Below are positions 44,662 through 62,449 of a DNA stretch of 64,000 nt, one piece after another; positions within the stretch are counted from its first letter, which is position 1; every line of letters begins with the position of its first letter. The DNA comes from Serpentinicella alkaliphila (GTDB taxonomy: Bacteria > Bacillota > Clostridia > Peptostreptococcales > Natronincolaceae). The notes beneath the pieces are model-generated. The model saw nothing but the letters and a program-made list of their open reading frames with translations. It did not search any database and had not been told where the DNA came from. The DNA is taken from the NCBI RefSeq assembly GCF_018141405.1, contig NZ_CP058648.1, positions 449,001 to 513,000 of the forward strand, given 5' to 3'. The translations under genes were made by a program, and so were the position numbers.

Positions 44662-45360
44662 TTACACTAATAATAGTCGATATTTATTCATTGTATTCAC
44701 ATCATCCCTATCATTATGAGGAATGTCTATAGTAAATTGTTTTTGTATCTTTAGTGGTATACCAGATAACACATGTATGTGATTTGCCATATACAAAACC
44801 TCATCAATGTCATGGGTTATATAAATAACTACATTTTTTTTCTCGTACCAATAGTCTATAATATAATCTATTAATACTTTCTTAATATCAAAGTGTAAAC
44901 CCTTAAAAGGCTCATCCATTATCAAAATATCACCATCATATGCGAATGCTCTAGCGATTGAAACCCGTTGCCTCATTCCACCACTTAATTCATTGGGATA
45001 ACATTTTTTAAAATCAATTAAATCCACAAGGGATAAATACTTATCCACTATTTCATCTATTTTTCTCTTTTCTATATTCTCTAACACAAACTTAATATTT
45101 TCTTCTATAGTAGCCCAAGGTAATAATCTGTCTTCTTGAAAAATATATGAAATCCTTTTATCCTTAAACCCAATAATATTACCTTTTTCATATGAGCAAA
45201 GCCCAACTAGGGTATTTATTAATGTTGTTTTTCCACAACCTGAGGGACCAAATAGACAATGGATTCCGTCAGATGAAAAATCTATATTAAAATTAGAAAT
45301 AACTTGAAGGTTCCCATAACTCTTATGCAGATTCTTTACTTGTAGCTTCACTATAATCAT
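44662..45360 (-). CDS. ABC importer ATPase, NitT/TauT-type (importer 1)
   Basis: This 232-aa nucleotide-binding subunit shows Walker A GPSGCGKTT (about 38-46), Q-loop YIFQEDRLLPW, signature LSGGMRQRVSIARA, Walker B ILIMDEPFKGL and H-loop THDIDE. Its sequence is closest to the SsuB/TauB class. It is the last gene of the importer-1 operon and its first 38 bases overlap the permease gene. A paralogue is at 55624-56340. Substrate preference is set by the binding protein and is not known. Confidence 0.93.
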   Translation of the reverse strand: MIIVKLQVKNLHKSYGNLQVISNFNIDFSSDGIHCLFGPSGCGKTTLINTLVGLCSYEKGNIIGFKDKRISYIFQEDRLLPWATIEENIKFVLENIEKRKIDEIVDKYLSLVDLIDFKKCYPNELSGGMRQRVSIARAFAYDGDILIMDEPFKGLHFDIKKVLIDYIIDYWYEKKNVVIYITHDIDEVLYMANHIHVLSGIPLKIQKQFTIDIPHNDRDDVNTMNKYRLLLV

Positions 45361-46147
45361 CCCTTTTATAAGAATTATTAACCGTACAAAAGCCGTTAGA
45401 AGTGGACTTTTTGATTAGTTTATTTAACATAATTTCAAATACAACACTTAGTATTATTACTACGGATGTCCAGGCAAATAATTCATTAGTGTCTAAATAA
45501 ACCTTAGCACTATGGACGTAACTACCTATTCCATTTCTGGGGAGACTTAGGACCTCTGCTGCTACACTTGCCTTCCACCCTAACCCCACTGCCGTTAAAC
45601 AGGCAGCAGATACATATGGAATGATTGATGGAAGATAGATCTTTCTTATTACAGTTAATCTTTTAATACCGTACATCTTAGCCATCTCTAAAAGTTTTAT
45701 ATCTACATTCCTTATTCCCGTAACTACATTAGTCCAAATTATTGGAAAACACAACAGGAAACATATAAATATAGGTACATTTGAGGAGCTAAGCCATATT
45801 ACAGCAAGGATAATAAAGGATATAACTGGAGTTGATTTTATAACAATAATAAGTGGATTTATTATGTCATGCACATGTTCATTCATAGCAGAGATTATTC
45901 CAATAGTAATTCCTAAAAGAATTGACCAAGCGAGTCCACTTAATACTCTATATATGGAGAAAGTAATAGATCTCCAAAAGTAAGGCTGCAAAACTAATTG
46001 TCTCAAGCTTAAAAATACGTTAAATGGAGAAGGGACATAAATGTCCCTTCCAATAATCACATGAGTTATCTGCCAAATTAGAACCCAAAATATAAAAATG
46101 CATATATTTTTAATTGATTTCTTATTTTTTGTAGTAATACCCTTCAT
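45323..46147 (-). CDS. ABC importer permease, NitT/TauT-type (importer 1)
   Basis: This 274-aa membrane protein has six predicted helices and the permease EAA loop EMAKMYGIKRLTVIRKIYLPS (about 160-180, near the end of the fourth helix), plus the family block VGLGWKASVAAEVLSLPRNG. The best start is the ATG at 46147 inside the GATGAAGG sequence that encodes the end of the binding protein, giving a 26-base overlap. The longer frame starting at 46186 lacks a ribosome site. The same overlap occurs in importer 2 (54585-54610), which supports this start and a common duplication origin. The paralogue lies at 53852-54610. Confidence 0.92.
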   Translation of the reverse strand: MKGITTKNKKSIKNICIFIFWVLIWQITHVIIGRDIYVPSPFNVFLSLRQLVLQPYFWRSITFSIYRVLSGLAWSILLGITIGIISAMNEHVHDIINPLIIVIKSTPVISFIILAVIWLSSSNVPIFICFLLCFPIIWTNVVTGIRNVDIKLLEMAKMYGIKRLTVIRKIYLPSIIPYVSAACLTAVGLGWKASVAAEVLSLPRNGIGSYVHSAKVYLDTNELFAWTSVVIILSVVFEIMLNKLIKKSTSNGFCTVNNSYKRDDYSEATSKESA

Positions 46148-47144
46148 CTGGTAATTTACCCCCAATTGATTTTTGATCAAAATCAAATAGTACCTGATAA
46201 AATTCCTCTAAATATGCTTTAGCATCCTGTGCATCTATGTATACAATATTGCTTAATGGAATTGCTTTTTTAGCTATGGCTGCCTTAGGTAGTATTTCAA
46301 ATTTTTCAATTAATTCCGAAGCTTCTTCATTATTCTCATTTACAAAACTAACTGACTGTTTATATTCATCCAAAAATATATTAAGAGCCTCTTTATTATT
46401 CTGAGCAAATTCCTTTTGAACAATTATTGACCCCATGGGTAATTGTCTATCTCCTGTTAACTTATTCCATTCAGCCGTAATATCTAAAGCTATTCTTAGG
46501 TTTGGATTTTGCATTAATGCTGTAGTCACATGGGGCTGAGGAAGTAGTCCCATTTTAACATCCCCTGCTACCAATGCTGCTGCTAACTCTGAATGCTGTA
46601 ATTTATAATCAATTATAACATCTTTATCAGGTGTTAGGTTATTCCCGTTTAAAATATAATTAAATACAAAATCCGGCGTTGCACCTTTTCCGCTAGAATA
46701 TATAGACTGACCTCTTAAATCTTCTACAGAATTAATGCTAGCCCCATTTTCTACTACATAAAGTACCCCAAGAGTATTAACAGCTGCTAATTGAATAGCT
46801 CCTTGAGTCCTGTTATATAATACTAAAGCTAAATTAGTTGGAACTGCGGCTACATCTACCTCACCACTTAAAATTTTACCTACTAAATCATCTGGGCTTC
46901 CCAGTAAAGTAAACTCATAATCTAAATCAGTTTCTCCAAGCTCGTTTTTTTCCATTAATTCTGCCATACCCATCCCTGTAGGACCTTTAAGAGTTGTAAC
47001 TTTTATTTTTACTTTCTCTATGTTCTCATTACCTGTTGTTTGTTGACCAATTTCATTTTTGGGGCTACAGCCCACTACAGTACCTAACGTCAAAACTATA
47101 ACAATCATTAAAATCAACACTTTTTTAAACCCATATTTTGTCAA
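46122..47144 (-). CDS. Lipoprotein substrate-binding subunit, SsuA/NMT1-like (importer 1)
   Basis: This 340-aa lipoprotein has a signal peptide with lipobox LGTVVGC (Cys26). The mature part fits the type II binding-protein fold with ILSGEVDVAAVPTNLALVLY, LRGQSIYSSGKGATPD and GGKLPDEGYYYKK at the end. It shares all of these blocks with the paralogue at 54585-55586. The family includes sulfonate, taurine, thiamine-precursor and nitrate binders, so the ligand is open. A Fur-like box (47164-47182) lies 20 bases upstream of the start, implying iron-regulated expression. Confidence 0.92.
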   Translation of the reverse strand: MTKYGFKKVLILMIVIVLTLGTVVGCSPKNEIGQQTTGNENIEKVKIKVTTLKGPTGMGMAELMEKNELGETDLDYEFTLLGSPDDLVGKILSGEVDVAAVPTNLALVLYNRTQGAIQLAAVNTLGVLYVVENGASINSVEDLRGQSIYSSGKGATPDFVFNYILNGNNLTPDKDVIIDYKLQHSELAAALVAGDVKMGLLPQPHVTTALMQNPNLRIALDITAEWNKLTGDRQLPMGSIIVQKEFAQNNKEALNIFLDEYKQSVSFVNENNEEASELIEKFEILPKAAIAKKAIPLSNIVYIDAQDAKAYLEEFYQVLFDFDQKSIGGKLPDEGYYYKK

Positions 47145-47163
47145 TTTAAAACCTCCCGATAGT

Positions 47164-47182
47164 ATTAGTGATAATCATTTTC
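47164..47182 (-). promoter_or_regulatory. Fur-like box upstream of importer 1
   Basis: The 19-mer contains the central TGATAATCATT exactly and matches the Fur consensus at about 15 of 19 positions. It lies in the short gap between the binding-protein gene and the Crp-type regulator gene. Confidence 0.6.
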
Positions 47183-47208
47183 ATATTAGCACCAACATTG
47201 TTTCTCTG

Positions 47209-47844
47209 TCAATCATATAATATAATTTTATTTGCCTCAAGTATTAAATATTTATCTTCTTCCAATTTTTTTAATATTCTATATAAAGAAGGTCTGCTAA
47301 TACCCAAGTAGTCCGCTAACTCACTTTTACTGAGGTTTAAGGTCACTTGTTTTTTATTATTTTGCTGTACTTTTAATTGTTTTATATAATTAATAATTCT
47401 CTCTTCAATATTATCTTGCGTAAAACACTCTACCCTTTGATTTAAAAAGTGTATTCTCCCACTTATATATCCTAAATAATTTCTTTGAATGTTCTCATCT
47501 AATTGAAATAATTTTAATAAACCTTCTTCATTAATAAACATAACAACCGATTCACTCTTTACATATAAAGACGTTACATTACTAACACTTTCCTGAAAAA
47601 GATTGGCTAAGCCAAAAACATCCCCACCTTTTATTTTATTCATAATAATTTTTTTACCTGTTATAAGGTTTTTCTGTATTTCAATTTTACCACTAAGAAC
47701 TATACCAATTTCTCTATCACAGTTTTCTATATAAGAACCCTTTGCATATATTACAGTTCTATAATTAATCGCTTTAAAAATATTAGTCAGTTTATCAATA
47801 TGTAGATGCTTAAAAAGAAAGGATTTTTGTAATTGATTGCTCAT
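47209..47844 (-). CDS. Crp/Fnr-family transcription regulator (regulator 1)
   Basis: This 211-aa protein has an N-terminal cNMP-binding-type beta barrel (about 20-120, with GIVLSGKIEIQK and GGDVFGLANLF) and a C-terminal winged helix whose recognition helix is LADYLGISRPSLYRILKKL. There are no N-terminal Cys residues of the Fnr type, so it is not an Fe-S sensor of that class. It sits between importer 1 (downstream, same strand) and the triad operon (divergent), and a second Crp-type gene (60538) is placed in the same way by the activase operon. The effector is unknown. Confidence 0.9.
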   Translation of the reverse strand: MSNQLQKSFLFKHLHIDKLTNIFKAINYRTVIYAKGSYIENCDREIGIVLSGKIEIQKNLITGKKIIMNKIKGGDVFGLANLFQESVSNVTSLYVKSESVVMFINEEGLLKLFQLDENIQRNYLGYISGRIHFLNQRVECFTQDNIEERIINYIKQLKVQQNNKKQVTLNLSKSELADYLGISRPSLYRILKKLEEDKYLILEANKIILYD

Positions 47845-47944
47845 TTCTATCCCCCTCGTCTAGAAAAATATAAATATATTTATTTTATAAATGTCTTATA
47901 TAATACATTTTTTATAATTTGATTGTATTATAATAACAACAGAT

Positions 47945-47971
47945 AAACAATAATGAATTTCATTATTGTTT
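47945..47971. promoter_or_regulatory. Perfect 13-bp-arm palindrome in front of the cytosolic triad operon
   Basis: The arms AAACAATAATGAA (47945-47957) and TTCATTATTGTTT (47959-47971) flank a single T. The core 47949-47967 matches the Fur consensus at 14 of 19 positions. It could bind a Fur-family protein or the neighbouring Crp-type regulator. A second palindrome (TATAATACA and TGTATTATA, 47899-47907 and 47924-47932) lies upstream, between the divergent genes. Confidence 0.6.
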
Positions 47972-47988
47972 CAAAGGAGGAGTATACT

Positions 47989-48702
47989 ATGGTAACAATT
48001 ATTATTGGTGGAGCCCCTGCTGTTGGAAAAACAAGTGTAGTAAAACATATTGTACAGTTTTTACAGCTTCAGAATGATTATCCTGCAGTATGTAAGATCG
48101 ATTGTATTGAAAGTAATGATGAACAAAACTATAAATTATTAAATATTCCTGTCATTCAAGGATTAAGTCAAAATATATGCCCAGATCATTTTTTAGCTAC
48201 TAATATTATTGATATTTTTGAGTGGGGTATAAAGAAAAAATCAAGTCATTTGTTTATTGAAACAGCAGGCCTGTGTAATCGTTGTGCTCCATTCATAAAT
48301 AGGGCCTTAAATATATGCGTTATAGATTGTATGGGCAGTATAAAAGGACCAGAAAAGCTTGGTCCCCTTGTTACAACAGCAGATATTCTAGTTCTAACTA
48401 AATCTGATTTAGTCTCTCAAGCTGAACGTGAAGTATTATCATATCATCTATCTAGCTTAAATTCCAAAGCAATAATCCTGGAAGTTAACGGTCTTTCTGG
48501 CTTTGGAGTACAAAGACTAGTTCAATTAATCGCGAAAAAAGGTCAATCCACTCATACTTTAGAGGAAGACCAGCTTAGATACTCTATGCCTGCAGCCAAC
48601 TGCTCTTATTGTGTTGGGGAAATACGTATTGGCCGTAGTTATCAACAAGGTATAGTTAATAAAATGGCTTTTAATGAGGAAGTTGAGGAAAATATATGCT
48701 AA
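47989..48702 (+). CDS. G3E-like P-loop GTPase with Cys motifs (metallochaperone-like)
   Basis: This 237-aa protein starts MVTIIIGGAPAVGKTSVV behind an AAAGGAGG site. A longer frame from 47953 would begin inside the palindrome and is unlikely. The P-loop is GGAPAVGKTS, the G4-like motif is LTKSD, and a central Cys motif ETAGLCNRCAPF occurs near residue 88. A second CxxC is near the C-terminus (ANCSYCVGEIRIG). This pattern of an NTPase with Cys pairs resembles HypB, UreG and other G3E metal-delivery GTPases, though it is not clearly any of them. It starts a three-gene operon with a soluble ABC ATPase and a binding-protein-like protein. Confidence 0.6.
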   Translation: MVTIIIGGAPAVGKTSVVKHIVQFLQLQNDYPAVCKIDCIESNDEQNYKLLNIPVIQGLSQNICPDHFLATNIIDIFEWGIKKKSSHLFIETAGLCNRCAPFINRALNICVIDCMGSIKGPEKLGPLVTTADILVLTKSDLVSQAEREVLSYHLSSLNSKAIILEVNGLSGFGVQRLVQLIAKKGQSTHTLEEDQLRYSMPAANCSYCVGEIRIGRSYQQGIVNKMAFNEEVEENIC

Positions 48703-49472
48703 ATAAACTTGAAATAATAGCTGGCTATGACAAAAAAGGTATTAAAGAATCTGTTGAGTCTGTCGTATTTGAAAGAGGCCAAATTTATACCATTGTTGGT
48801 AAAACTGGTTCAGGTAAAACATTGTTAATGGAAGATATTGAATGCCTTAACGATGGTGAAGGAATAACTAAGAGGACAATTCTTATTGATGGTGAAAAGC
48901 CTGGTGATTCGTTCTATGTAGGATACAGAAGTAGATTAATAGCACACCTTTCTCAAAATATGAACTATATTCTAGATATGCCAGTACTAGAATTTCTAAA
49001 TTTACGAAATCAACTTCATACTTCTAAAGAATTTAATGTAAACCCTATTAAAACCCTTGAAACAGCTAATTTATTAAGTGGAGAAGAGATACAACCCCAG
49101 CAGCTCCTCACTAAATTAAGTGGTGGACAATCAAGGGCATTGATGATAACTGATGTGGCACTAAACAGTTCAGCTCCAGTTATACTAATAGATGAGGTTG
49201 AAAATGCTGGTATAGATAGAATTAAGGCAATGTCTTTATTAATAAAGCATGAGAAGATTGTTTTAGTAGCTACCCATGACCCACTATTAGCTCTATACGG
49301 TAATAAAAGAATTGTACTAAGCAACGGTGGTATGAGTAAAATAATTGAACGCTCATCTGAAGAAGAAGCCATATTGGAACAACTAATTGCAGTAAATGAT
49401 AAAATGGAAAAAATGCGTCTACAAATTCGTAATGGAGAATCATTAAAAGGAGTGAATGACCTTGTCTTATAA
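48696..49472 (+). CDS. Soluble ABC-type ATPase without a permease partner
   Basis: This 258-aa ATPase has Walker A VGKTGSGKT (about 35-43), signature KLSGGQSRALMI, Walker B VILIDEVENAG and H-loop ATHDP. No membrane segment is visible and no permease gene lies beside it. It overlaps the GTPase gene by 7 bases and the next gene by 17. The tight overlap indicates a stable complex with both. ABC ATPases without membrane partners act in processes such as SufC-type Fe-S assembly or methyl-coenzyme M reductase activation. The role here is unknown. Confidence 0.75.
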   Translation: MLNKLEIIAGYDKKGIKESVESVVFERGQIYTIVGKTGSGKTLLMEDIECLNDGEGITKRTILIDGEKPGDSFYVGYRSRLIAHLSQNMNYILDMPVLEFLNLRNQLHTSKEFNVNPIKTLETANLLSGEEIQPQQLLTKLSGGQSRALMITDVALNSSAPVILIDEVENAGIDRIKAMSLLIKHEKIVLVATHDPLLALYGNKRIVLSNGGMSKIIERSSEEEAILEQLIAVNDKMEKMRLQIRNGESLKGVNDLVL

Positions 49473-50412
49473 AGTTTATTGGAATAATATATGTTTATTA
49501 AGCAATATGGAAGAGGCTTTTATTAACACCCAACAAAAAATACAGAAGCATTTTCCGTTCACCTTTGAGTACTATGGTTTAGGAAAACCTTCATCAATGA
49601 CTGTAAAAATTAAAGAGGATATACAAGCCGGAAACATAGGTGGAGATATTATAGTTTCAACGGATTTAGATATATATCAAGATGTAACGATTGCTAAATA
49701 TTTACAGAATGAATTTAAAAAAAGTTCTTCCCTTTTACCTATTAATGAGCATCTATTTAACACTACTATACCTCATCCTGAACAATACTTTCACCCCTTT
49801 GTAGTTATTCCTCTAGTTATGGTCGTTAACAGTAATTTAGTCAAAGAATCTGAAATGCCAAAAGCGTTTGAAGACTTAATAAGCCCTAACTTTAAATACA
49901 GATATGCATTTGGTGGAATACATAACTCTGCAGGTAGATCCTTATTGAAATCACTCTGGTATATGTATGGAAAAAAAACTGTAGAGAAATTTCTATCTGG
50001 GGCTACTATTACTACTATGCCAGCTCAGGCATTTCAACAGGTTATGACTGGTCAAGTAGAAGTCGCTATAGTGCCAACAATTTTTGCCCTTAGAAAGGGG
50101 GTTAATGGAATAAAAGCAATCTGGCCAAAAGAAGGTGCAATTCCTATACCCTCCTATGTTGCATGCAAAAACAATGTCTCTGAAGAGGATTTTAGTTTAT
50201 TTGTTGATAATATACTAGGTAAAGAATTTCAATTACAGTTAAAAAATGCTGGTGATATAATTCCATCTCACCCAGAACTATCTATATCATCCTTTGCAAT
50301 GGAAAATGATTGTAAGTTGCTTTATCCAGAATGGGAATTTTTTAAAACATTTGATCATGAAGAGTTCTATAATCAATGCAATAGCTTCTATCATCTTTTA
50401 AAAGCACAATAG
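49456..50412 (+). CDS. Substrate-binding-protein-like protein lacking a signal peptide
   Basis: This 318-aa protein resembles type II periplasmic binding proteins: GGDIIVSTDLDIYQDV, HPFVVIPLVMVVNSNLVKES, FGGIHNSAGRSLLKSLWYM and VTGQ-like VMTGQVEVAIVPTIFAL. There is no signal peptide, lipobox or membrane helix at the N-terminus, so it should stay in the cytosol, which is unusual for the fold. The start is an ATG after AAAAGGAGTGA, or a TTG two codons later with better spacing. As the last gene of the triad it probably binds a small molecule or metal complex handed on by the GTPase and ATPase. Confidence 0.7.
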   Translation: MTLSYKVYWNNICLLSNMEEAFINTQQKIQKHFPFTFEYYGLGKPSSMTVKIKEDIQAGNIGGDIIVSTDLDIYQDVTIAKYLQNEFKKSSSLLPINEHLFNTTIPHPEQYFHPFVVIPLVMVVNSNLVKESEMPKAFEDLISPNFKYRYAFGGIHNSAGRSLLKSLWYMYGKKTVEKFLSGATITTMPAQAFQQVMTGQVEVAIVPTIFALRKGVNGIKAIWPKEGAIPIPSYVACKNNVSEEDFSLFVDNILGKEFQLQLKNAGDIIPSHPELSISSFAMENDCKLLYPEWEFFKTFDHEEFYNQCNSFYHLLKAQ

Positions 50413-51856: not shown

Positions 51857-53629
51857 TTAATGGAGGAGAGCATTAATTAAACTTACACTTTGATTTATAA
51901 TTCCTCCCACTAAAATAGCTGTGAAAATTGTAAAAATACTAATCTGAATCGCTACCTTTATACTAAATTCCTTAACTAAAATTCCAAAAACTGAAAGGCA
52001 AGGAAGATAAAACAATGCGACTACAGAGCCTACAACCATCTGTAATGTGCTTAAATTTAATTGTAATAATGGTAGAACTGCCATTTCTCTTCTAACAATT
52101 CCTAAGATTAAAGCTATACTTGCTTCAGCAGGTAGTCCAAGCCACTGGACAACCAATGGTTGAATTAATACACCTACAGAATTTAGTAATCCTGTCTCAG
52201 CGACTAATGCAGCTATACCTACGGCTAATACCATTGGAAGTTCTGCTTCAATCATAAAGCTTCTTACTCTAAACCAAATCTTTTTTAATAATGCCTGTGC
52301 ATTTGGTACAAGCAAGTACGGTATTTCTAAAAGCATTGGGTTTACAAACCCATCTAACATTTTGTTTAGTACGATACCGCCTAATAGAATAAAACAAAAG
52401 GAAATTAAATAAACAAATATAATTGCTAACATTGAGTGGTTCCCTAGAAGGGCAATAAAAGCTCCAGTTTGGGCAATACAAGGAACAGCTAATGTTACGA
52501 GAGTAGAAATTATCAATCGTTCTTTTTGAGATGTAGCTACCCTAGATCCCAAAATCGCTGGGATTGCGCACCCATAACCCATAATAAAAGGGACTATACT
52601 ACTCCCTTGAATACCAATACGCCTTAATATACCATCCACTATGACACCTAAATGTGGCAAATATCCAGTATCCTCTAATACAGATAATACTCCATAGAAT
52701 AAGGCTACATAAGGTAGAATTAGTGCAAAGGGCCATTCAACTCCTTTGATTAGCATGCCATACTCTCCAATAAGAATATTTAAAATTATACCTTCCGAGA
52801 TAATACTTTCAATAAGCTTAGAAATTAAAGGAACATACCAGTTATTCAATATAGGAAGTAGTATTAGAGTCCTTAAAGCCTTACCTCCACCTACAACTAT
52901 AGCTAGACAAAATAGTAAAACAACTATTGCAATAGGTAATCCAGTATAAAAATTAATACATAAATCACTAAATTTATCTAATTTGGATACTCTCGATTCA
53001 ACTGAATTTAAATGAACTTTTTTAACAATCGCCTTTGATTTATCCCATATTTCTTCTTTACTTAAGCCTTCTTCCCTTCGTGCATAATAATCATTTTGCC
53101 CTAGCTCCCATGTTTTTTGTAAAACTTCTTTAATTCCAATGTTTCTTGTTGCAATTGTTGATATTACAGGCGCACCTAATTCTGTTTCCAATGATTTAAT
53201 ATCTATTTTAATCCCTTTGGAATCAGCTATATCTAGTAAGTTTAAAACAAATACAACTGGAATTTCATATTCCATAACCTGAAATGCTAAATTAATGCTT
53301 CTTTCTAAGAATGTTGCATCTAACACACATATTATAACATCAGGCCGGCCTTCCTCTAAAAACTTTATTGCAACTTCTTCAGCACTTGAGGTAGCCTCTA
53401 ATGAATATATACCTGGAACATCTGTTATAATGCCGGTTTTACCTAAATGCTTTATTTTGCCCTGTGAATAGTCAACAGTGGTGCCTGGATAATTAGAAAT
53501 CATAACTTGCATACCTGTTAGTTTTGAAAATATAACACTTTTACCCACATTAGGGTTCCCGATTAATAGAATTCGTATTTCTTCCTTTTCCGTATTACTT
53601 ATATTATTAATAACACTATGGCAGCCCAA
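51857..53629 (-). CDS. feoB: FeoB-family ferrous iron transporter, short form
   Basis: This 590-aa protein has an N-terminal GTPase domain (G1 GNPNVGKS at 24-31, G3 TDVPGIYSLE, G4 NLLD) followed by about eight membrane helices. The GYGCAIPAILGSR segment corresponds to the FeoB gate motif around the conserved GxGC..P. The chain is shorter than most FeoBs (about 650-770 aa), and no FeoA gene is nearby. The start is a TTG overlapping GAGGAG, and its exact position is uncertain because the frame is open upstream. A near-perfect Fur box (53662-53680) lies just upstream. It should import Fe(II) or a similar metal. Confidence 0.88.
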   Translation of the reverse strand: MGCHSVINNISNTEKEEIRILLIGNPNVGKSVIFSKLTGMQVMISNYPGTTVDYSQGKIKHLGKTGIITDVPGIYSLEATSSAEEVAIKFLEEGRPDVIICVLDATFLERSINLAFQVMEYEIPVVFVLNLLDIADSKGIKIDIKSLETELGAPVISTIATRNIGIKEVLQKTWELGQNDYYARREEGLSKEEIWDKSKAIVKKVHLNSVESRVSKLDKFSDLCINFYTGLPIAIVVLLFCLAIVVGGGKALRTLILLPILNNWYVPLISKLIESIISEGIILNILIGEYGMLIKGVEWPFALILPYVALFYGVLSVLEDTGYLPHLGVIVDGILRRIGIQGSSIVPFIMGYGCAIPAILGSRVATSQKERLIISTLVTLAVPCIAQTGAFIALLGNHSMLAIIFVYLISFCFILLGGIVLNKMLDGFVNPMLLEIPYLLVPNAQALLKKIWFRVRSFMIEAELPMVLAVGIAALVAETGLLNSVGVLIQPLVVQWLGLPAEASIALILGIVRREMAVLPLLQLNLSTLQMVVGSVVALFYLPCLSVFGILVKEFSIKVAIQISIFTIFTAILVGGIINQSVSLINALLH

Positions 53630-53661: not shown

Positions 53662-53680
53662 AATAATGATAATCATTATC
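53662..53680 (-). promoter_or_regulatory. Fur box of feoB
   Basis: AATAATGATAATCATTATC matches the Fur consensus at 18 of 19 positions and lies 32 bases upstream of the feoB start. Confidence 0.9.
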
Positions 53681-53754
53681 GTTAACAGAGTATAATATAC
53701 CACTTATACCACATATAGTCAACAAATAATTCAGAGGGCATTTTAAAACAAAAA

Positions 53755-53851: not shown

Positions 53852-54610
53852 TCAATCTTTATGTTTTTTTGCTACTTCTATTATTTGTTCTAACATTGCC
53901 GCTAATACAATTGTTATTAGAGACCATGCAAATACTCCAGCAGTATTAAGACTAGCCCTTTCGATTTGAAAATTTGTACCCATAGAGATTCTGGGTTGAC
54001 TTAAAACCTCTGCGGCTATTATTATTTTAAGATTCAATCCCATAGCAGAAGACATTGCACCGTATAAATATGAACTTATAGATGGTATATATAAATCCAT
54101 AAACTTATCTATTATACCAATATGATATATATCCATCATTTCAACAATCTTTATATCAACATTTCTAATCCCTTGTACAACACTCTCATATATAACAGGG
54201 AATATAACTACAAACCCTACTAAAATTGGTGCCTTTTCTGACTGTAGCCAGATAAGTGCAAGTAAAATCATAGCCATTGTCGGCACAGCTTTATTTACTA
54301 AGATAATAGGTCTTAATAGGTAATAAATCGGTCTTGAGAAACCACCCATCATCCCTAAGCTAACCCCTGCCCCTAAGGCAAATACAAATCCTATTAATGC
54401 CCTTTTCAAAGTATTAATTAAGGAGGTAATAAAGTTAGGAGAGCTGATAATCCTAATTAATTCTTTTAAAGTACTTGCTGGAGATGGAATTAATATTTCT
54501 CTATCTACTATATTAGCTGCTATATTCCAAATAATTATTAGTACAATTACTGACAATAGAGTATATAAAGGTTCCTTCGGTTCTTTATTTTTGGAAATAG
54601 AAGCCTTCAT
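53852..54610 (-). CDS. ABC importer permease, NitT/TauT-type (importer 2)
   Basis: This 252-aa permease begins MKASISKNKEPKEP, with five to six membrane helices and the EAA-loop region EMMDIYHIGIIDKFMDLYIPS. It shares the family block VDIKIVEM and the AAEVLSQPRISMG motif. Its ATG overlaps the 3' end of the binding-protein gene by 26 bases, exactly as in importer 1. It is the last gene of a four-gene operon that starts with the giant activase. The paralogue is at 45323. Confidence 0.93.
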   Translation of the reverse strand: MKASISKNKEPKEPLYTLLSVIVLIIIWNIAANIVDREILIPSPASTLKELIRIISSPNFITSLINTLKRALIGFVFALGAGVSLGMMGGFSRPIYYLLRPIILVNKAVPTMAMILLALIWLQSEKAPILVGFVVIFPVIYESVVQGIRNVDIKIVEMMDIYHIGIIDKFMDLYIPSISSYLYGAMSSAMGLNLKIIIAAEVLSQPRISMGTNFQIERASLNTAGVFAWSLITIVLAAMLEQIIEVAKKHKD

Positions 54611-55586
54611 CAGGAAGCTTCCCTCCTATTGTTTCTGGTGCATATTCAAATAGCACGTTTAAATATTTCTCTATAGATTCCTTAGCGCTCTTAATATCTC
54701 TATACTCTATGTTTGATCTTCCTAAGCCATTTACTACAGCTCCTTTTGATAATCCTGTTTCAAGTTCTTCACTGTATTCTCCTGCCTTAGGAGCATTTGA
54801 ATGTAACCATTTAATGCTGTTTTCATATTCCATTAAAAAGTTTTGTACAAACTCTGGATCTTTCTCAATAATCTCGCTTTTAATTATTAATGATGCTTGA
54901 GGATAACTTGAATTGATTTTGTTTAGTTTAGCCCACTCCTCTTGTAAATCAAATAGTATATTAGTACCCTCTTTTTTCATCATTACATTTGAAAGTGCTG
55001 GTTCTGGTATAACGGATATGGCACTTTTCCCTGCTATAAATGTTGAAGCAAGCTCCGCAGCCTCACCCACATAAGTTAAAGTCACATCTTTTTCTGGATC
55101 TAAACCATTACTAGTTAATAGGTATCTTAAAACTACATCCGGAGTAAGACCTCTACCCATAGTATGTATTTCTTTTCCCCTTAAATCATCCCATCCATTA
55201 ATTTCTTCATTTCCAACTAAATAAAGAACACCCCATACACTTGATGCTGCAATTTTATAGTCTACACCTCTATTATATAGAGTTGCGGCTAAATTTGTTG
55301 GTACTACAGCAATATCGATTTCACCTGAAATTATTCTAGAAGCTAATAAATCTGGTGACTTTATAGTTTCATAGTTTATTTCTATATGATCTCCAAAGGA
55401 AGGGTTTTCTTTAAACATTTTAATCATACTTAAATTTGGAGCTCCAGTTGGGGCAGCAACATTTAAACTTAAGTTCTCTAGTTCTTTAACTTCTTCTACC
55501 TTTGGATTGTCAACCTTTGAAGAACATCCAACTAAAAACATTACTGCTAAACCTAAAATTAAAATAAGACTAATCACCTTTTTCAT
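54585..55586 (-). CDS. Lipoprotein substrate-binding subunit, SsuA/NMT1-like (importer 2)
   Basis: This 333-aa lipoprotein starts MKKVISLILILG behind an AGGAG site. A longer frame from 55631 lacks that. The lipobox FLVGC places Cys21 as the lipidated residue. Shared blocks with importer 1 are VVPTNLAATLYNRG, LRGKEIHTMGRGLTPD and the terminal GGKLPDEGFYFQK. The two binding proteins are clear paralogues that have diverged in the middle, so they may bind related but different ligands. It lies between the ATPase and permease genes of the same operon. Confidence 0.92.
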   Translation of the reverse strand: MKKVISLILILGLAVMFLVGCSSKVDNPKVEEVKELENLSLNVAAPTGAPNLSMIKMFKENPSFGDHIEINYETIKSPDLLASRIISGEIDIAVVPTNLAATLYNRGVDYKIAASSVWGVLYLVGNEEINGWDDLRGKEIHTMGRGLTPDVVLRYLLTSNGLDPEKDVTLTYVGEAAELASTFIAGKSAISVIPEPALSNVMMKKEGTNILFDLQEEWAKLNKINSSYPQASLIIKSEIIEKDPEFVQNFLMEYENSIKWLHSNAPKAGEYSEELETGLSKGAVVNGLGRSNIEYRDIKSAKESIEKYLNVLFEYAPETIGGKLPDEGFYFQK

Positions 55587-55623
55587 TATTGTTTTACACT
55601 CCTTATATTTTATATTTTTATTT

Positions 55624-56340
55624 TTAAGCACTTTTATAGGTGCCTTTATCCTGTTGTTTAGAAAGAGTTTTTATTAACTTACTCCTTACTTCAAATAACT
55701 CCCTATCATCTAGGCTCCTTAAATTTTGTGGGGTATTTATTTTTATAACAGTCTCAACAGTACAAGGGTTTTTCGTAAGTACTACAACTCTATTCCCTAA
55801 TAGTAACGCCTCATCAATTTCATGAGTAACAAACACAATCGAATTCTTCCATTTATGCCATATATCAATTAAGCTTTTTACCATATTTATTCTTAAATCA
55901 TAATCCAAAGATTTAAATGGCTCATCCATTAAAAGCATTTGGCATTCATAGTTAAAAGCTCTGGCTATGGAACATCTCTGTCTCATGCCACCACTTAATT
56001 GATTAGGGTATTTGTTTTCAAAATTGCTCAGACCTACAATATCGATTAAGTTTTGGATTTTATTATCCGAAGCAATTTTGTTAACAATTTTAATATTTTC
56101 AAATACAGTTTTCCATGGCAGTAATCTATCCTCCTGAAAAACATATCCGATTTTCTTATGATTATTTTTTATACTACCTTTATCTGGATTAATAATCCCC
56201 GCCATTACATTAAGTAAGGTAGACTTACCACAACCTGAAGGACCTAAAATACAGGTTATTTCATTATCTTTGATTTCCATATTAAAGTTGTGCAGTACAT
56301 TTATTTCATCATAACTTTTATAAATACCATCTAGAAACAT
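55624..56340 (-). CDS. ABC importer ATPase, NitT/TauT-type (importer 2)
   Basis: This 238-aa ATPase has Walker A GPSGCGKST, Q-loop YVFQEDRLLPWKTV, signature LSGGMRQRCSIARA, Walker B LLMDEPFKSLD and H-loop THEIDE. It closely resembles the importer 1 ATPase. It is the second gene of the operon, 35 bases after the activase gene. It should drive uptake of whatever the binding protein at 54585 captures. Confidence 0.93.
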   Translation of the reverse strand: MFLDGIYKSYDEINVLHNFNMEIKDNEITCILGPSGCGKSTLLNVMAGIINPDKGSIKNNHKKIGYVFQEDRLLPWKTVFENIKIVNKIASDNKIQNLIDIVGLSNFENKYPNQLSGGMRQRCSIARAFNYECQMLLMDEPFKSLDYDLRINMVKSLIDIWHKWKNSIVFVTHEIDEALLLGNRVVVLTKNPCTVETVIKINTPQNLRSLDDRELFEVRSKLIKTLSKQQDKGTYKSA

Positions 56341-56375: not shown

Positions 56376-59300
56376 TCACTTCATTGCATAGTATATAAAT
56401 GAATCTATTTTTGAGTTATCTATTTCATTTTCATTTCCATCAAAGGTCATATTTAATATCGGTAGCTTTGATAACCTTTTCTGATCTTGAGTAAATATAT
56501 TCAAGATAGTGTTTGTATTTTCATACATCGAAGAAACAGAAATAACTCCGTTTACAAAATCTAAATTACCTAAAGTTTTTGCATATCTATATCTACCATT
56601 TCCTCCAGTATATAAGCCTAATCCCTCATCAGCTCTTCTAACAAGGTCATTCATATCCTTTTCAAATATGTTTATAGGCTCGACTATATTAGATATTACT
56701 TTCATATAATTAGAAAGCGTTGTTAAATTGTTCAGTAGTTCATCCGCTTTTTGAGTCTTGTTATGTGCTAAGTAATCTCTCCATAAAAACCACATATACT
56801 CGCTAAGAGGTGCAAATAAAAGGTTTATACCCTTTTCCTCTAAGGCTTTAAATCTATTGTTATTTAAGAAATCGTTAAAAATAATACTTGCTTCTCCTAT
56901 AACAAATAGCTTACTTGTATGTGCATTACTTTTTAGCTCTTTACTAATTTCCATGGCTATATCCTGCAAACTATCAATAGATAATTTATTATTTTTAATT
57001 AAACAAATAATTTTATTTACGTACTCTTCTCTTCTATTTCTTCGTAAGAGATTTACTAAATCTCCCCCCAGAAGTAATAGAAATATCTGTTCAGACAATT
57101 GCCTATCTTTTATTACATCCTCAATGAAAGGAGCTACTATTTCTGCATTCTGCATATTTCCATTATCTAACTTATCTCGTAATAATCTATTGTATTGTCC
57201 ACCTATTTCCGCGCCCTCACAGGTAGGTATTATAAAACCAATATTCTGGTTTTGCTCATTACTCTCTAGACCTTTGGACAAAATATCCCCTAAAATGCTA
57301 GTAAAGGATAGGTACTCTTTAGTTAATGTATTTTTACGTCCTACATCAAGTGTTTTACCTGAAGTCATAGGAAGTACATGTACATCATAGGCTTTTCCTT
57401 GAAGCGAAGCTGCTAATAGCTCAGAGTAAGGATATAAAAATGGCAAATATAGTATAGTGTTCTTATCTACTTCATCCAAGTTATTTTTTATATAAGTTGG
57501 TTTGTGAGTAACCTTATTTGAGTAATCTTTTAAAGTTAAATCATTAGCCACTTCAACCTTATCGGATTTAATGCTATTTACAAAGGCCTCTACTCTTGTC
57601 AATACTCCTACACTTGAAAAATGCTCATCTACTTCAATATTTAAGTAAGGCTTTCCACTCATTTCTTCCTTAAAATAATGAACTAAGGCAGTATCAGGTC
57701 CACAACCATGATTTGTTATATAAATTGGATATAGATTAGGATGCTGCTTAATTATTTGAGCTCCAGATAAAATATGCTGCCCGAAGGGCCAATACATATT
57801 AGGATGTTCCTTAGATGTATCATGATCATGAGCTGGCAAATTAGATAGTGTTAACACTTTATAACCTAACTTTTCTAGCTTTTCAGGTATACCCATATTC
57901 AATATTGGATCTACTATGCCATAACCCCTAGTCACTATCACAAAGACTTTTTCATCCTTCCCTAAGCTACTAACAACTTCTTCCCCTTGTTTTTCAACCT
58001 TTAATTCAAAGCGTCTTAGGCTTTTCATTCCTTTCGTTAAGGCTGAGCCTGTTCGAATTGGATTCTTACCTAACTGTTTCCCTAACTCCATTAAGGTCTT
58101 CATCAAATATTTCTTGCCAAACTTAAAGGAAAGCTCTGGTGATAATAATTTTATTCCTTTTCTATCAAGGTCCATGGTTATATCTATAAGCTTTGGAACA
58201 CATTGCATATAAACACATCCATAATCTTGTCTAGTTGTTGAAACTGAATGGGACATAGTGTATAAGCTTGGTAAAAAAATGTAATCTACTTTCTTTTCAA
58301 TTAATTCAGCTATATGGCCATTTATAAGTTTAATTGGATAGCAAGTTTCATCCATTGAATACTCTTGACTTAGCTCTACAGTTTTCTCACTACTGTTATC
58401 AGATAATATGACATTAAAACCTAGCTCTTTAAAATAAGTATTAAATAGCGGAAATAGTTTGTGTAGGAAAAGCACTCTTGGTATCCCAACTGTCTTTTTA
58501 GAAGGATCTAACTTACGGTCATATCCTGCTAAATAGAGTCTTTCAATCTCTTCAAATATTTCTGTTCTTTTAGCTTCTTTTACAATTTCATGCTTACGTT
58601 CTTTTTCATATACTACATTTTCATCTAAATTAAAGCCTCTAAATGAAGACTGGCCTTTCATATCTTCCTTTGCTAAAATTGCTGCGCCATATGCTCCTGT
58701 TACGCTAAAAAACTTAGGTATTTCTAATTTTTCGCCTAATATGGCCTTAAAAGCATTTATTACTGCCTGATTGTATGCCACTCCACCTTGGAACAATATT
58801 TTATTTCCAACTACTTTGTTTCCAACTACTTTATTAAGATAATTCTTTGCAATTGAATAAGCTAATCCGGCGGCTATATCTTCTAATTTTGCTTCGTTAC
58901 TCAAACTTGCTGCTATATTTGTTTCTATAAAAACTGTACATCTATCCCCTAAATCTATAGGGCTTTTGGACTTCATTGCTAAATCCCCAAAATCATTTAT
59001 AGGAATATTTAATTTTAATGCCTGCTCTTCTATAAATGATCCAGTCCCTGCTGCACAAATTTTATTCATCTCAAAATCTGAAACAACACCATTCTCTAAT
59101 TTTATAAATTTTGAGTCCTGACCACCGATTTCTATTATCGTATCTACTTCAGGGTCGATAAAATTTGCGGCCTTTGCTTGTGCAGTTATTTCATCTATGA
59201 TTACATCTGCACCTACAAACTTACCTATCATATACCTACCAGAGCCAGTAGTTCCTACCCCTAGTACATTTATTTTTTTTCCAAGATCATTTTGTATTTC

Positions 59301-60383
59301 CTGTAGGCCTTGGGTTACTACCTTTATTGGATTACCCCGGGTTCTTAAATATTTAAAACTAATAACATCATTATTTTCATCCATAAATACAACATTTGTA
59401 CTTGTTGAACCGATATCAATACCTATATATCCACTAACAGCCCCTTCGGAGCCTATTGCTTTACAGTTGTGTTTGTTGCTACTATCATTGCTTCCATACT
59501 GGGATAAAGAGGATAAAATAACTGTATTATCAAAGGATGCTAGTAACCTTTCGTTTTCTAAACTTAGATTAACAAAACTAGTTAGATCAATGGATAGATT
59601 ATCCTTTAGTCCTATAATTGCTGCCCCAAGAGCTGAAATATTGCCACAATCCTTAGGTATTATTACATCCTCATTATTTAGTTTTAATACATCGATTAAA
59701 GCCTTTACAATCGATTCATTATATATAACTCCTCCAGTAAGTAATAGAGGTGTTCGTATTGGATATTTCTTTACAACATTAGCTCTGTAGTTTTTAACAA
59801 GCGCATATGCTAAACCTAATAAAATATCCTTTGAGTCTACCCCCTCTTGCTGATGATGTATAATATCTGTTTTAGCAAATACACTACATCTTCCAGCTAT
59901 ACGGGGTATGAAGGTTGCATTTTGAGTAAGATTTGAGTAACTCTCTAAATTAACTCCTAATCTAGATACCTGTTCCTCTATAAACGAACCTGTACCTGCA
60001 GAACAATTAGAATTAATAGATATTAATATATTTGAATTGTCCGAATCACTTATATTAGTTAGAAACTTTGAGCTTTGACCACCAATCTCTACAATAGAAC
60101 CTATATCACAATTAACTTGTTTACTACCCTCTACCAAAGAAGTAACTTCGTTTATCCATGACAGTCCATATTTTTCTGATATATATTTACTGCCCTGACC
60201 TGTTGCAGCTCCATATCTTATGCTATTTCCGTATTTACTAGTTAATTGTTTTATATTTTTATCTATTTCTTCCTTAACTCTACCTTTATGTAAAACATAG
60301 GTACTATACTGTACTTCCATCTTTTCATCTATTAGTAAGAATTTTATGGAAGAATATCCGATATCAATTCCTAAGCTATGCAA
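56376..60383 (-). CDS. Giant tandem 2-hydroxyacyl-CoA dehydratase activase fused to DUF2229 and HgdB-like domains
   Basis: This 1335-aa cytosolic protein joins two ASKHA ATPase domains of the BadF/HgdC type (about 1-265 and 320-575), a DUF2229 domain (about 632-870) and a further HgdB-like region to about 1335. Both ATPase domains keep the two cluster-ligand cysteines, Cys127 and Cys166 (NCSAGTGSF, GRCSVF) and Cys443 and Cys482 (ICAAGTGSF, DRCTVF). Activases normally dimerise and share one [4Fe-4S] cluster held by four such Cys, so one chain could form its own pseudo-dimer. ATP hydrolysis would drive a very low-potential electron to a partner. It is the first gene of an operon with ABC importer 2 and has a Fur-like box upstream (60428-60446). 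The acceptor is unknown. Confidence 0.9.
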   Translation of the reverse strand: MHSLGIDIGYSSIKFLLIDEKMEVQYSTYVLHKGRVKEEIDKNIKQLTSKYGNSIRYGAATGQGSKYISEKYGLSWINEVTSLVEGSKQVNCDIGSIVEIGGQSSKFLTNISDSDNSNILISINSNCSAGTGSFIEEQVSRLGVNLESYSNLTQNATFIPRIAGRCSVFAKTDIIHHQQEGVDSKDILLGLAYALVKNYRANVVKKYPIRTPLLLTGGVIYNESIVKALIDVLKLNNEDVIIPKDCGNISALGAAIIGLKDNLSIDLTSFVNLSLENERLLASFDNTVILSSLSQYGSNDSSNKHNCKAIGSEGAVSGYIGIDIGSTSTNVVFMDENNDVISFKYLRTRGNPIKVVTQGLQEIQNDLGKKINVLGVGTTGSGRYMIGKFVGADVIIDEITAQAKAANFIDPEVDTIIEIGGQDSKFIKLENGVVSDFEMNKICAAGTGSFIEEQALKLNIPINDFGDLAMKSKSPIDLGDRCTVFIETNIAASLSNEAKLEDIAAGLAYSIAKNYLNKVVGNKVVGNKILFQGGVAYNQAVINAFKAILGEKLEIPKFFSVTGAYGAAILAKEDMKGQSSFRGFNLDENVVYEKERKHEIVKEAKRTEIFEEIERLYLAGYDRKLDPSKKTVGIPRVLFLHKLFPLFNTYFKELGFNVILSDNSSEKTVELSQEYSMDETCYPIKLINGHIAELIEKKVDYIFLPSLYTMSHSVSTTRQDYGCVYMQCVPKLIDITMDLDRKGIKLLSPELSFKFGKKYLMKTLMELGKQLGKNPIRTGSALTKGMKSLRRFELKVEKQGEEVVSSLGKDEKVFVIVTRGYGIVDPILNMGIPEKLEKLGYKVLTLSNLPAHDHDTSKEHPNMYWPFGQHILSGAQIIKQHPNLYPIYITNHGCGPDTALVHYFKEEMSGKPYLNIEVDEHFSSVGVLTRVEAFVNSIKSDKVEVANDLTLKDYSNKVTHKPTYIKNNLDEVDKNTILYLPFLYPYSELLAASLQGKAYDVHVLPMTSGKTLDVGRKNTLTKEYLSFTSILGDILSKGLESNEQNQNIGFIIPTCEGAEIGGQYNRLLRDKLDNGNMQNAEIVAPFIEDVIKDRQLSEQIFLLLLGGDLVNLLRRNRREEYVNKIICLIKNNKLSIDSLQDIAMEISKELKSNAHTSKLFVIGEASIIFNDFLNNNRFKALEEKGINLLFAPLSEYMWFLWRDYLAHNKTQKADELLNNLTTLSNYMKVISNIVEPINIFEKDMNDLVRRADEGLGLYTGGNGRYRYAKTLGNLDFVNGVISVSSMYENTNTILNIFTQDQKRLSKLPILNMTFDGNENEIDNSKIDSFIYYAMK
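58804..58833. repeat. In-frame 15-bp tandem duplication inside the activase gene
   Basis: TTTCCAACTACTTT plus G or A is repeated side by side (58804-58818 and 58819-58833). It adds the five residues VVGNK in the second ATPase domain (NKVVGNKVVGNK). It is a recent in-frame expansion. Confidence 0.9.
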
Positions 60384-60427: not shown

Positions 60428-60446
60428 GACTATGATTATCATTTTC
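60428..60446 (-). promoter_or_regulatory. Fur-like box upstream of the activase operon
   Basis: On the minus strand GAAAATGATAATCATAGTC matches the Fur consensus at 16 of 19 positions. It is 45 bases before the activase start. Confidence 0.7.
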
Positions 60447-60537: not shown

Positions 60538-61218
60538 ATGAATGAAAATATAAATGTACTTACTAACTGTATATTATTTAACCACCTATCATTTGAAGAG
60601 CTAAAATCTTTTTTGTCTAATATTAGCTATACTGTTAAATCATATAAAAAAAATGAAATGGTTTTTTCTCCTAACAGGTCCTCCGATACTTTAGGAATAA
60701 TTTTAACTGGAAGCGTTGATGTTCAAAAAATATTCGCTTCAGGAAAAGCCGTTACTGTAAGTAGAAGGTATCAACAGGATCTAATTGCAGAGGCGTCTAT
60801 ATTTGCAAACATAGACTGCTATCCTTCTACAGTTGTTTCAACTGAAAATAGTAATATTTTATTAATAGAAAAAAGTAATCTTCTAAAATTATTTACTATG
60901 GATGAACGCATTATGACTAAATTTTTAGAATCTGTTTCAAATAGAATCCTGGCTCTCAATAGTACAATTGAAATACTTTCTTTAAATTCTGTTCCTGCAA
61001 AAATATCTTATTTTTTATTATTAGAACAGAAAAAGCAAAATAGTAATACGATTCAATTAAAATTCACAAAGAAAACTTTAGCGGAGCATATTAATGTTTC
61101 AAGACCTACCTTATCAAGAGAGCTTAAAAATATGCAACTAAAAGGTATGCTCTCTTTTACTAAAAAGACTATTGAGATTCATTCTTCCGAAAGACTTGAA
61201 GATATTTGTGCAGAATAA
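60538..61218 (+). CDS. Crp/Fnr-family transcription regulator (regulator 2)
   Basis: This 226-aa protein has the effector-binding barrel (LGIILTGSVDVQKIF, about 58-72) and a winged helix with recognition helix LAEHINVSRPTLSRELKNM. It has a single Cys close to the N-terminus but no Fnr-type cluster. GGAGAGG precedes the ATG. It is divergent from the activase operon, with a Fur-like box and the TGTATC palindrome in the 154-base gap. It is distantly similar to regulator 1 (47209), which suggests two parallel regulator-importer modules. Confidence 0.9.
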   Translation: MNENINVLTNCILFNHLSFEELKSFLSNISYTVKSYKKNEMVFSPNRSSDTLGIILTGSVDVQKIFASGKAVTVSRRYQQDLIAEASIFANIDCYPSTVVSTENSNILLIEKSNLLKLFTMDERIMTKFLESVSNRILALNSTIEILSLNSVPAKISYFLLLEQKKQNSNTIQLKFTKKTLAEHINVSRPTLSRELKNMQLKGMLSFTKKTIEIHSSERLEDICAE

Positions 61219-61282: not shown

Positions 61283-61708
61283 CTATTTAACTAACTTTGC
61301 CCCTAATTCTTTACATTGTTTTAAACCTTCGTCATCAGGAGTTAAATGTAAAATTAACCCTTCAGCAACTAAGCTAGCACCGTAATCTTCCATTCTTTTT
61401 TCCCAATCCTTCATCCATTCACCATTACCCCAATCGTAAGACCCAAATAGTGCAACAGATTTTCCTGTAATAACACTTTGTAATGACTCTACGAAAGGTT
61501 CCATTTCTACCTCTTCTAACACCTCAGCCCCCATAGAAGGACAACCTAGTGCAACATAATCTGCCTTATTTACATCCTCTAAAGTAGCTTGATCGACACT
61601 TAAAAGTTTAACTTCATTACCGCCCTCTTGTGCCCCTTCAACAATTGATTTAGCCATCATTTCTGTATTTCCTGTTCCACTCCAATAAATAACCACAACT
61701 TTTTTCAT
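61283..61708 (-). CDS. Flavodoxin (iron-limitation electron carrier)
   Basis: This 141-aa flavodoxin starts MKKVVVIYWSGTGNTE, with the FMN phosphate loop SGTGNTE, then LGCPSMGAE and FGSYDWGNGEWM around the flavin ring. The longer frame to 61804 is a read-through into the promoter. A GGAGGT site seven bases before the ATG at 61708 is decisive. A strong Fur box (61784-61802) lies upstream, typical of flavodoxins that replace ferredoxin when iron is short. Flavodoxin hydroquinone is a known electron donor to 2-hydroxyacyl-CoA dehydratase activases, which links it to the giant activase 1.3 kb away. Confidence 0.95.
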   Translation of the reverse strand: MKKVVVIYWSGTGNTEMMAKSIVEGAQEGGNEVKLLSVDQATLEDVNKADYVALGCPSMGAEVLEEVEMEPFVESLQSVITGKSVALFGSYDWGNGEWMKDWEKRMEDYGASLVAEGLILHLTPDDEGLKQCKELGAKLVK

Positions 61709-61783
61709 TTTATGTACCTCCATTAATTTATTGTTATTGCAACTACAAATTCTGTTTTCATTGATATATGACAACTCACTTTT

Positions 61784-61802
61784 GATAATAGTTATCATTA
61801 TC
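61784..61802 (-). promoter_or_regulatory. Fur box of the flavodoxin gene
   Basis: On the minus strand GATAATGATAACTATTATC matches the Fur consensus at 17 of 19 positions. It is followed by a further TATCAT half-site at 61815-61820. Confidence 0.88.
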
Positions 61803-62060
61803 ATTAGTTAAAGGTTATCATGTGTTATTTTGTTTGTCAATATAATTTTTTTAATTCAAAAAAAATAAAATGGCATAAGTCTTAGGACCTATACCTTTTA
61901 TTCCACTGGTTAATACGGGGTGTGGGGATCAGATCAGTGGTTTATCAAAATTTAGAAATTAACAATTATATTGATACTAATTTTCATAAAGCAAATATTA
62001 TCAATTGTCAAGCTAATTGTCAACATTATTTTTTATTTTAAATAGTTTGAATGGAAAATA
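61803..62060. other. Gene-free stretch upstream of the flavodoxin promoter
   Basis: I see no credible ORF. An inverted repeat CCACTG/CAGTGG brackets a G-rich run at about 61911-61941 (GGGGTGTGGGG). Its role is unclear. Confidence 0.4.
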
Positions 62061-62110: not shown

Positions 62111-62449
62111 TTATGGTTTAAACACAACCACAAGAAGCATTTTGAATTGTTCCGTTGCTAATAATGCATGGGGTATACCAGCTGGCATAACAATGGTTTC
62201 ACCCTTCTTTACATTAAAAACTTCATCACCTATGGTTATATCTGCTTCCCCATCCAGTAGATAAACCATTGCATCTCCTCTAGATGAATGAGAGCTAATT
62301 TCTTCCCCTTTGTCAAAGGCAAATAAAGTTAAACTTAAATTTTGCCCCTGGGCTAAGGTTCTGCTAATTACCTGTCCCTTTTGATATTCAACTAATGACT
62401 CCATATTTAGAACTTTTGAAAGTTCTACATTTTTTATAATGTGCTCCAT
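62111..62449 (-). CDS. Small cupin-domain protein (paralogue of 17279-17620)
   Basis: This 112-aa cupin shows GDAMVYLLDGEADITIG and the second motif VMPAGIPHALLA, with His in EEISSHSSRGD and PHALLA as likely metal ligands. It is closely related to the cupin at 17279. AAGGAGG precedes the ATG at 62449. It is next to the iron-regulated cluster but has no clear Fur box of its own. Function is unknown. Confidence 0.8.
   Translation of the reverse strand: MEHIIKNVELSKVLNMESLVEYQKGQVISRTLAQGQNLSLTLFAFDKGEEISSHSSRGDAMVYLLDGEADITIGDEVFNVKKGETIVMPAGIPHALLATEQFKMLLVVVFKP

Follow-up and report, generated by a model that had tools for sequence, protein, structure and literature searches.

A fused double-activase protein in a predicted Fur-controlled importer locus of Serpentinicella alkaliphila: a candidate ATP-dependent reductase for iron starvation

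Why does a protein built from the activases of acyl-coenzyme A (CoA) dehydratases lie behind a Fur-like box and in front of an ATP-binding cassette (ABC) importer operon? The question is posed by a 64,000-nucleotide stretch of the Serpentinicella alkaliphila genome (contig NZ_CP058648.1, positions 449,001 to 513,000; hereafter the window), in which a preliminary description made from the sequence alone had singled out a 1335-residue fusion protein whose setting acyl-CoA dehydration did not explain. We propose, with a probability of roughly one half, that the fusion, in a single chain, is an ATP-dependent reductase of very low potential from the benzoyl-CoA reductase (BCR)/2-hydroxyacyl-CoA dehydratase (HAD) superfamily that serves in iron starvation, its probable substrate, inferred from its surroundings, being an iron or metal compound that the cell imports. 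The main surprise is twofold, and both parts had been missed by the preliminary description: a three-Cys site has been exchanged for Tyr/Glu/Glu, and the operon is linked to iron.

The open reading frame (ORF) comprises 1335 open codons and begins with a TTG start codon just downstream of a GGAGG motif; the N-termini of orthologues coincide with its start residue. Pfam profiles match BcrAD_BadFG twice and DUF2229 at residues 631–847, and two stretches are found for each of the activase profiles (BcrAD_BadFG, 234.7 bits; TIGR00241, 292 bits). The fusion of DUF2229 and HgdB-like regions to the activases, as first described, is borne out by Pfam and by comparison with homologues. Of the "two complete activase domains in one chain", two domains are indeed present, but the first is not complete, its phosphate-1 and phosphate-2 motifs being degenerate throughout the clade. 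Nor are two activases per chain an unusual trait, as fused relatives of ~1420–1460 residues are found in most related genera and in many of the 60 related genomes searched, 59 of which match some part of the window protein.

Close orthologues of similar length (48–71% identity) are confined to about a dozen of these 60 genomes, and a strong match to the full family is found in only 10 of 398 sampled genomes of the phylum, the window's own counted. An alignment of 48 sequences splits without exception into group A, which holds the window protein, and group B. In a tree of 59 sequences, a branch with 100% support in the Shimodaira–Hasegawa-like approximate likelihood ratio test (SH-aLRT) separates the 31 group A members from the rest, and a four-Cys linker between activase 2 and DUF2229 is present in 28/28 group B proteins and absent from group A. 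By these sequence comparisons, group A is a distinct, patchily spread clade. Named family members come from Bacillota, Bacteroidota, Thermodesulfobacteriota, Spirochaetota, Actinomycetota and the archaeon Methanolobus vulcani, a patchy distribution that suggests horizontal spread. Three orthologues are interrupted (loci L044, L052 and L150), by an in-frame TAG in one genome and by division into two ORFs in another and three in the third; sequencing error, gene decay and real splitting are all possible.

The cluster Cys that had been noted in both ATPase domains, C127 and C166 in the first and C443 and C482 in the second, are invariant in 48/48 homologues. The ATP motifs of domain 2 (phosphate-1 S326 and phosphate-2 GGQD in the 421–423 region) are likewise invariant in groups A and B. 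In domain 1, group B retains both motifs, whereas group A has lost the phosphate-2 Asp in 20/20 sequences and kept the phosphate-1 Ser in 2/20. Because the motifs of domain 1 are lost while those of domain 2 are intact, the activase pair is probably asymmetric, with one good ATP site. An AlphaFold model of residues 1–600, which span both activase domains, reached a predicted local distance difference test (pLDDT) score of 90 and a predicted template modelling (pTM) score of 0.82. By our own estimate, two 260-residue domains without a fixed arrangement would score a pTM of ~0.5, so the arrangement of the two activases is predicted to be fixed. In fold searches, the activase domains resemble the HadI, HgdC and MbdQ structures (Z 31–33, ~2 Å), which are the nearest structures to domain 2, and each half of the model matches activase or ASKHA folds. 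The model and these matches together support the intramolecular pseudo-dimer that had been suggested at the outset.

A second model, of residues 318–1335 (pLDDT 88.8, pTM 0.88), supports the earlier idea that electron source and acceptor lie in one molecule. In acceptor half 1, C681, C723 and C894 are invariant across all 48 aligned family members and are predicted to form a three-Cys [4Fe-4S] site. The ligand set first put forward was Cys681, Cys723 and Cys728; the first two are conserved, Cys728 is not and is unsupported as a ligand, and C894 takes the third place. Acceptor half 2 is different. Its three corresponding positions are Tyr, Glu and Glu in all 31 group A members (with one Asp), so that Y1024, E1059 and E1288 replace Cys and the Fe-S ligands of this half are absent from the window protein. 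Group B carries the three Cys in the motifs KEC-P, GPCRFGQY and PFTCMPG; the standalone COG3581 proteins of the S. alkaliphila genome keep these three Cys as well. The spacing of the triad (~35 and 229 residues) is preserved between the Cys and the Tyr/Glu/Glu versions. With only three invariant Cys, the acceptor region falls short of the six that an [8Fe-9S] double cubane requires. Profile searches of this region gave only weak matches, to HadC and DCCP; these, together with the Pfam HGD-D and DUF2229 matches of its homologues, point to its kinship with the superfamily.

The Fur-like box that had been reported ahead of the fusion gene is confirmed (Table 1). Seven matches of 16/19 quality occur in the window, compared with 0.05 expected from shuffled sequences, and predicted Fur boxes also precede the FeoB and flavodoxin genes. 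Among Firmicutes, a box of at least 15/19 precedes 17 of 27 group A genes, as against 30 of 308 other genes of the same loci (p ~6e-10), and several of these other genes are iron genes themselves. The fusion is a predicted member of the Fur regulon, with a promoter box conserved in orthologues. A shorter 7-1-7 Fur pattern with three mismatches was uninformative (24 matches, 20 expected), and a literature search of limited scope found no link of the fusion family to Fur or iron.

The importer operon noted behind the fusion gene was also recovered, at 53852–56340, and is presumably co-transcribed with it. Almost all close orthologues share one gene order (regulator, activase fusion, ABC ATPase, binding protein, permease), and a cupin gene is often present too. 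We then compared 41 group A loci with 58 group B control loci. A CRP-type regulator is found in 32/41 group A loci against 3/58 in group B, an NMT1-type binding protein in 25/41 against 0/58, an Ssu-like permease and ATPase together in 23/41 against 0/58, a cupin in 19/41 against 0/58 and an ArsM-like methyltransferase in 11/41 against 2/58. Iron or FeS genes accompany 16/41 group A loci and 2/58 group B loci; FecCD (6/41), Peripla_BP_2 (6/41), Fur (5/41), SufB/D (5/41) and TonB receptor (4/41) genes are each absent from the group B set (0/58). The importer and Fur box beside the fusion, the puzzle with which we began, are a conserved pattern in these comparisons.

How might such a protein work? 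Members of the superfamily use ATP to pass an electron from a bridging [4Fe-4S] cluster on to the clusters of an acceptor, and may in theory reach about −1 V (PMC11971306). In the fusion, two Cys from each activase domain would together hold a [4Fe-4S] cluster within the asymmetric intramolecular pseudo-dimer, and this cluster would receive its electrons from flavodoxin or ferredoxin; the flavodoxin encoded in the window is a plausible carrier in low iron. Binding and hydrolysis of ATP, mainly at domain 2, would then drive the electron to the putative C681/C723/C894 [4Fe-4S] cluster of acceptor half 1. Half 2, free of a cluster, may offer its invariant Tyr/Glu/Glu at the former ligand positions as a binding site for the substrate or for a hard metal ion, Fe(III) for example. 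Uptake of the substrate would be through the downstream ABC system, and it would most likely be a ferric chelate or a tetrapyrrole-type iron or metal compound, whose reduction would release the metal.

In our judgement the fusion most likely reduces an iron or metal compound that has been imported, given the one-chain electron path, the hard oxygen ligands, the Fur boxes and the uptake genes. More tentatively, the fusion could be an ATP-driven, iron-liberating reductase in which a nitrogenase-like energy input is spent on a ferric chelate or metal tetrapyrrole that has been imported and whose stability defeats ordinary reductases, the Tyr/Glu/Glu set being a hard-ligand metal site that evolved in the place of a [4Fe-4S] cluster. 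Several points weigh against our main reading. Importers of the Ssu/Tau type usually carry small organic anions rather than ferric complexes, and the reduction of many ferric chelates needs no ATP. Several family members, mostly outside the Firmicutes, have no recognisable Fur box, and in 7/41 group A loci both an importer and iron genes are missing from the vicinity. In addition, the loci share descent, and the group B controls differ taxonomically and have slightly shorter flanks, so that the p-values overstate the independent evidence.

An importer nearest to Ssu/Tau/Sao-type models could instead bring in a sulfonate, a small organosulfur or another organic compound, which the enzyme would cleave or reduce for sulfur, for example for Fe-S assembly, with Fur control as a sign that iron and sulfur metabolism are coupled. 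The SufB/D genes at some group A loci would suit this scheme, as would the Clostridioides difficile ssuA2B2C2 operon, whose induction in low iron was described as the co-regulation of iron and sulfur metabolism (PMC6311696). It remains unlikely in our view, since FecCD/Peripla_BP_2, TonB receptor and Fur genes also adjoin group A and some members have no Ssu-like importer. SufC/SufBD-like pairs at five loci, the Fur boxes and the presence of flavodoxin in the local regulon would also fit a reductive factor for the assembly or repair of Fe-S or other metallocofactors in iron starvation, rather than a reductase that breaks down an import; this we hold to be quite unlikely, as the importer and the CRP-type regulator are the most constant partners and point to an external substrate.

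Reduction of an imported organometallic or metalloid compound, such as methylated As or Se, to detoxify or salvage it and not to obtain iron, is improbable. It draws on the ArsM-like methyltransferases near group A loci, on an ArsP-type permease in two Bacteroidales loci and on an ATPase and permease nearest to Sao models, described as organometallic-linked; the methyltransferase matches, however, lie far under their family cut-offs, and Fur boxes and iron genes are present. That the fusion is an ordinary fermentative 2-hydroxyacyl-CoA dehydratase or its activator, or a benzoyl-CoA reductase, is very improbable despite its domain homology to HadI, HgdC and BcrD-type proteins. The second cluster site is lost, a Fur box is present, the inspected part of the window shows no CoA enzymes next to the gene, and the absence of dehydratase A/B subunits noted earlier holds for the inspected neighbourhood (44–64 kb). 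Ordinary dehydratase activation is further disfavoured because the same genome has a CoA transferase/activase/HadBC-like operon (~1.815–1.823 Mb; L062) with its own activase, which likewise supports a role outside acyl-CoA dehydration; dehydration by the window fusion is thus unlikely.

If the iron-related reductase is real, the fusion may help anaerobes to obtain iron from imported compounds. How strict anaerobes free iron from tight complexes is poorly understood, and such an enzyme would be a new kind of answer that extends the BCR/dehydratase superfamily to metal acquisition. The change from a cluster to Tyr/Glu/Glu offers a sharply testable evolutionary conversion of an electron-transfer site, and the covalent joining of activase and acceptor a handy model for ATP-gated electron transfer.

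Table 1 Coordinates of the fusion, its domains and neighbouring features in the window
Feature	Position	Strand	Basis or remark
Fused double-activase/acceptor protein, 1335 aa	56376..60383	-	Open ORF, TTG start, Pfam, orthologue start
Activase domain 1, residues 1-262	59598..60383	-	Cys127/Cys166 retained; phosphate-1 Ser and phosphate-2 Asp lost (Y10, S104)
Activase domain 2, residues 318-580	58644..59432	-	Cys443/Cys482, ATP motifs intact
Acceptor half 1, residues 628-944, DUF2229/COG3580-like	57552..58502	-	Invariant Cys681, Cys723, Cys894
Acceptor half 2, residues 972-1335, COG3581/HgdB-like	56379..57470	-	Tyr1024, Glu1059, Glu1288 at three-Cys positions of relatives
Predicted Fur box GAAAATGATAATCATAGTC, 16/19	60428..60446	-	Centre ~54 bp before fusion start codon
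ABC ATPase, Ssu/Tau/Sao-like	55624..56340	-	Profile matches, neighbourhood comparison
Substrate-binding protein, NMT1/SsuA-like, lipobox-like signal (by inspection)	54585..55631	-	Closest solved structure 3hn0
ABC permease, SsuC/SaoP-like	53852..54610	-	Profile matches
FeoB ferrous iron transporter	51857..53629	-	Strong overlapping Fur boxes 53662-53686
CRP/FNR-type regulator, divergent	60538..61218	+	Conserved beside group A genes
Flavodoxin, probable true start near 61708 (by inspection)	61283..61804	-	Fur box 61784-61802
Small cupin	62111..62449	-	Orthologues within operon in several relatives
Second ABC importer (MqnA/phosphonate-type binding protein, permease, ATPase)	44662..47144	-	Fur-like box 47169-47183

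The importer beside the fusion scores below the curated cut-offs for SaoA (171 of 360 bits), SaoP (102 of 295 bits) and the SsuA family (49 of 163.5 bits); on these profiles it is related to the Sao and Ssu families and not a member of them. The neighbouring CRP-type regulator has no conserved Cys set, which speaks against oxygen sensing of the FNR type. In some genomes, group A genes are accompanied by a binding protein of the type found in the second, Fur-boxed importer. The stretch 44662–50412 holds, next to that importer, another CRP-type regulator, a CobW-like protein, an ABC ATPase and a binding protein that lacks an obvious signal peptide; the group A gene of L044 also has this set beside it. 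Elsewhere, small SufC and SufB/D-like pairs lie near group A genes in L053, L064, L071, L073 and L144, several of them accompanied by heterodimeric exporter-fold ABC transporters. FmdE-type proteins adjoin group A genes in Desulfobacterales (L070 and L078), and in one of the two cases a TonB receptor and a cytochrome-like protein are also present. Genes of the selenium and methyl-selenium clusters (PMC10418091, PMC5322559) were considered as a link, and none was recognised next to group A genes in the loci that were read.

Away from the window gene, the genome has the HadBC-like operon and two activase/DUF2229/HGD-D-like triads. The former also contains a second, partial HadB copy (L062:5230-6475) and a second HadC copy, suggesting tandem duplication. 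At ~185–189 kb (L061:5158-9305), a 255-residue activase and a 333-residue HGD-D protein with a weak double-cubane reductase match directly adjoin genes resembling queC, folE, queE and queD, named by eye. QueF, the preQ0 reductase, was not found in this genome, in which tgt and queA are present, and the activase and the HGD-D protein are together a candidate for an alternative preQ0 reductase that depends on ATP. A QueD-like gene has similar genes beside it in L048:919-3083.

Set against known systems, the window protein is closest in plan to the group B fusions, annotated "acyl-CoA dehydratase activase-related" (two BcrAD_BadFG domains and DUF2229), which share its domain order, activase Cys pairs and first three-Cys site. 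Group B also has the four-Cys linker and, in the acceptor, another three-Cys site; both are missing from the window clade, which carries Tyr/Glu/Glu instead and, unlike group B, is located in Fur/ABC/CRP/cupin loci. The standalone triads of activase, COG3580 and COG3581 proteins in the same genome (208 kb and 397 kb) consist of the same three parts as separate proteins, with a single activase gene, presumably for a homodimer, and the three-Cys set on both acceptor subunits. The HadI/HadBC and HgdC/HgdAB dehydratases share the activase fold and the three-Cys acceptor logic, and differ in their separate subunits, two acceptor clusters and CoA substrates. Class I benzoyl-CoA reductases (BcrABCD, MbdONPQ, BzdNOPQ) likewise use an ATP-driven activase dimer to feed a heterodimeric acceptor. 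There, BzdO holds a three-Cys [4Fe-4S] cluster (PMC11971306) and BzdN a six-Cys double cubane, whereas half 2 of the window protein has no conserved Cys. DCCP/DCCP-R belongs to the same superfamily and shares the activase (fold match to 7yyl_E), but is unfused and has a homodimeric acceptor with a double cubane. Finally, C. difficile ssuA2B2C2-CD2992 also joins an Ssu-type importer to a redox protein under iron limitation (PMC6311696); its redox partner is described as iron hydrogenase-like, and we offer the operon as a parallel rather than as a demonstrated orthologue.

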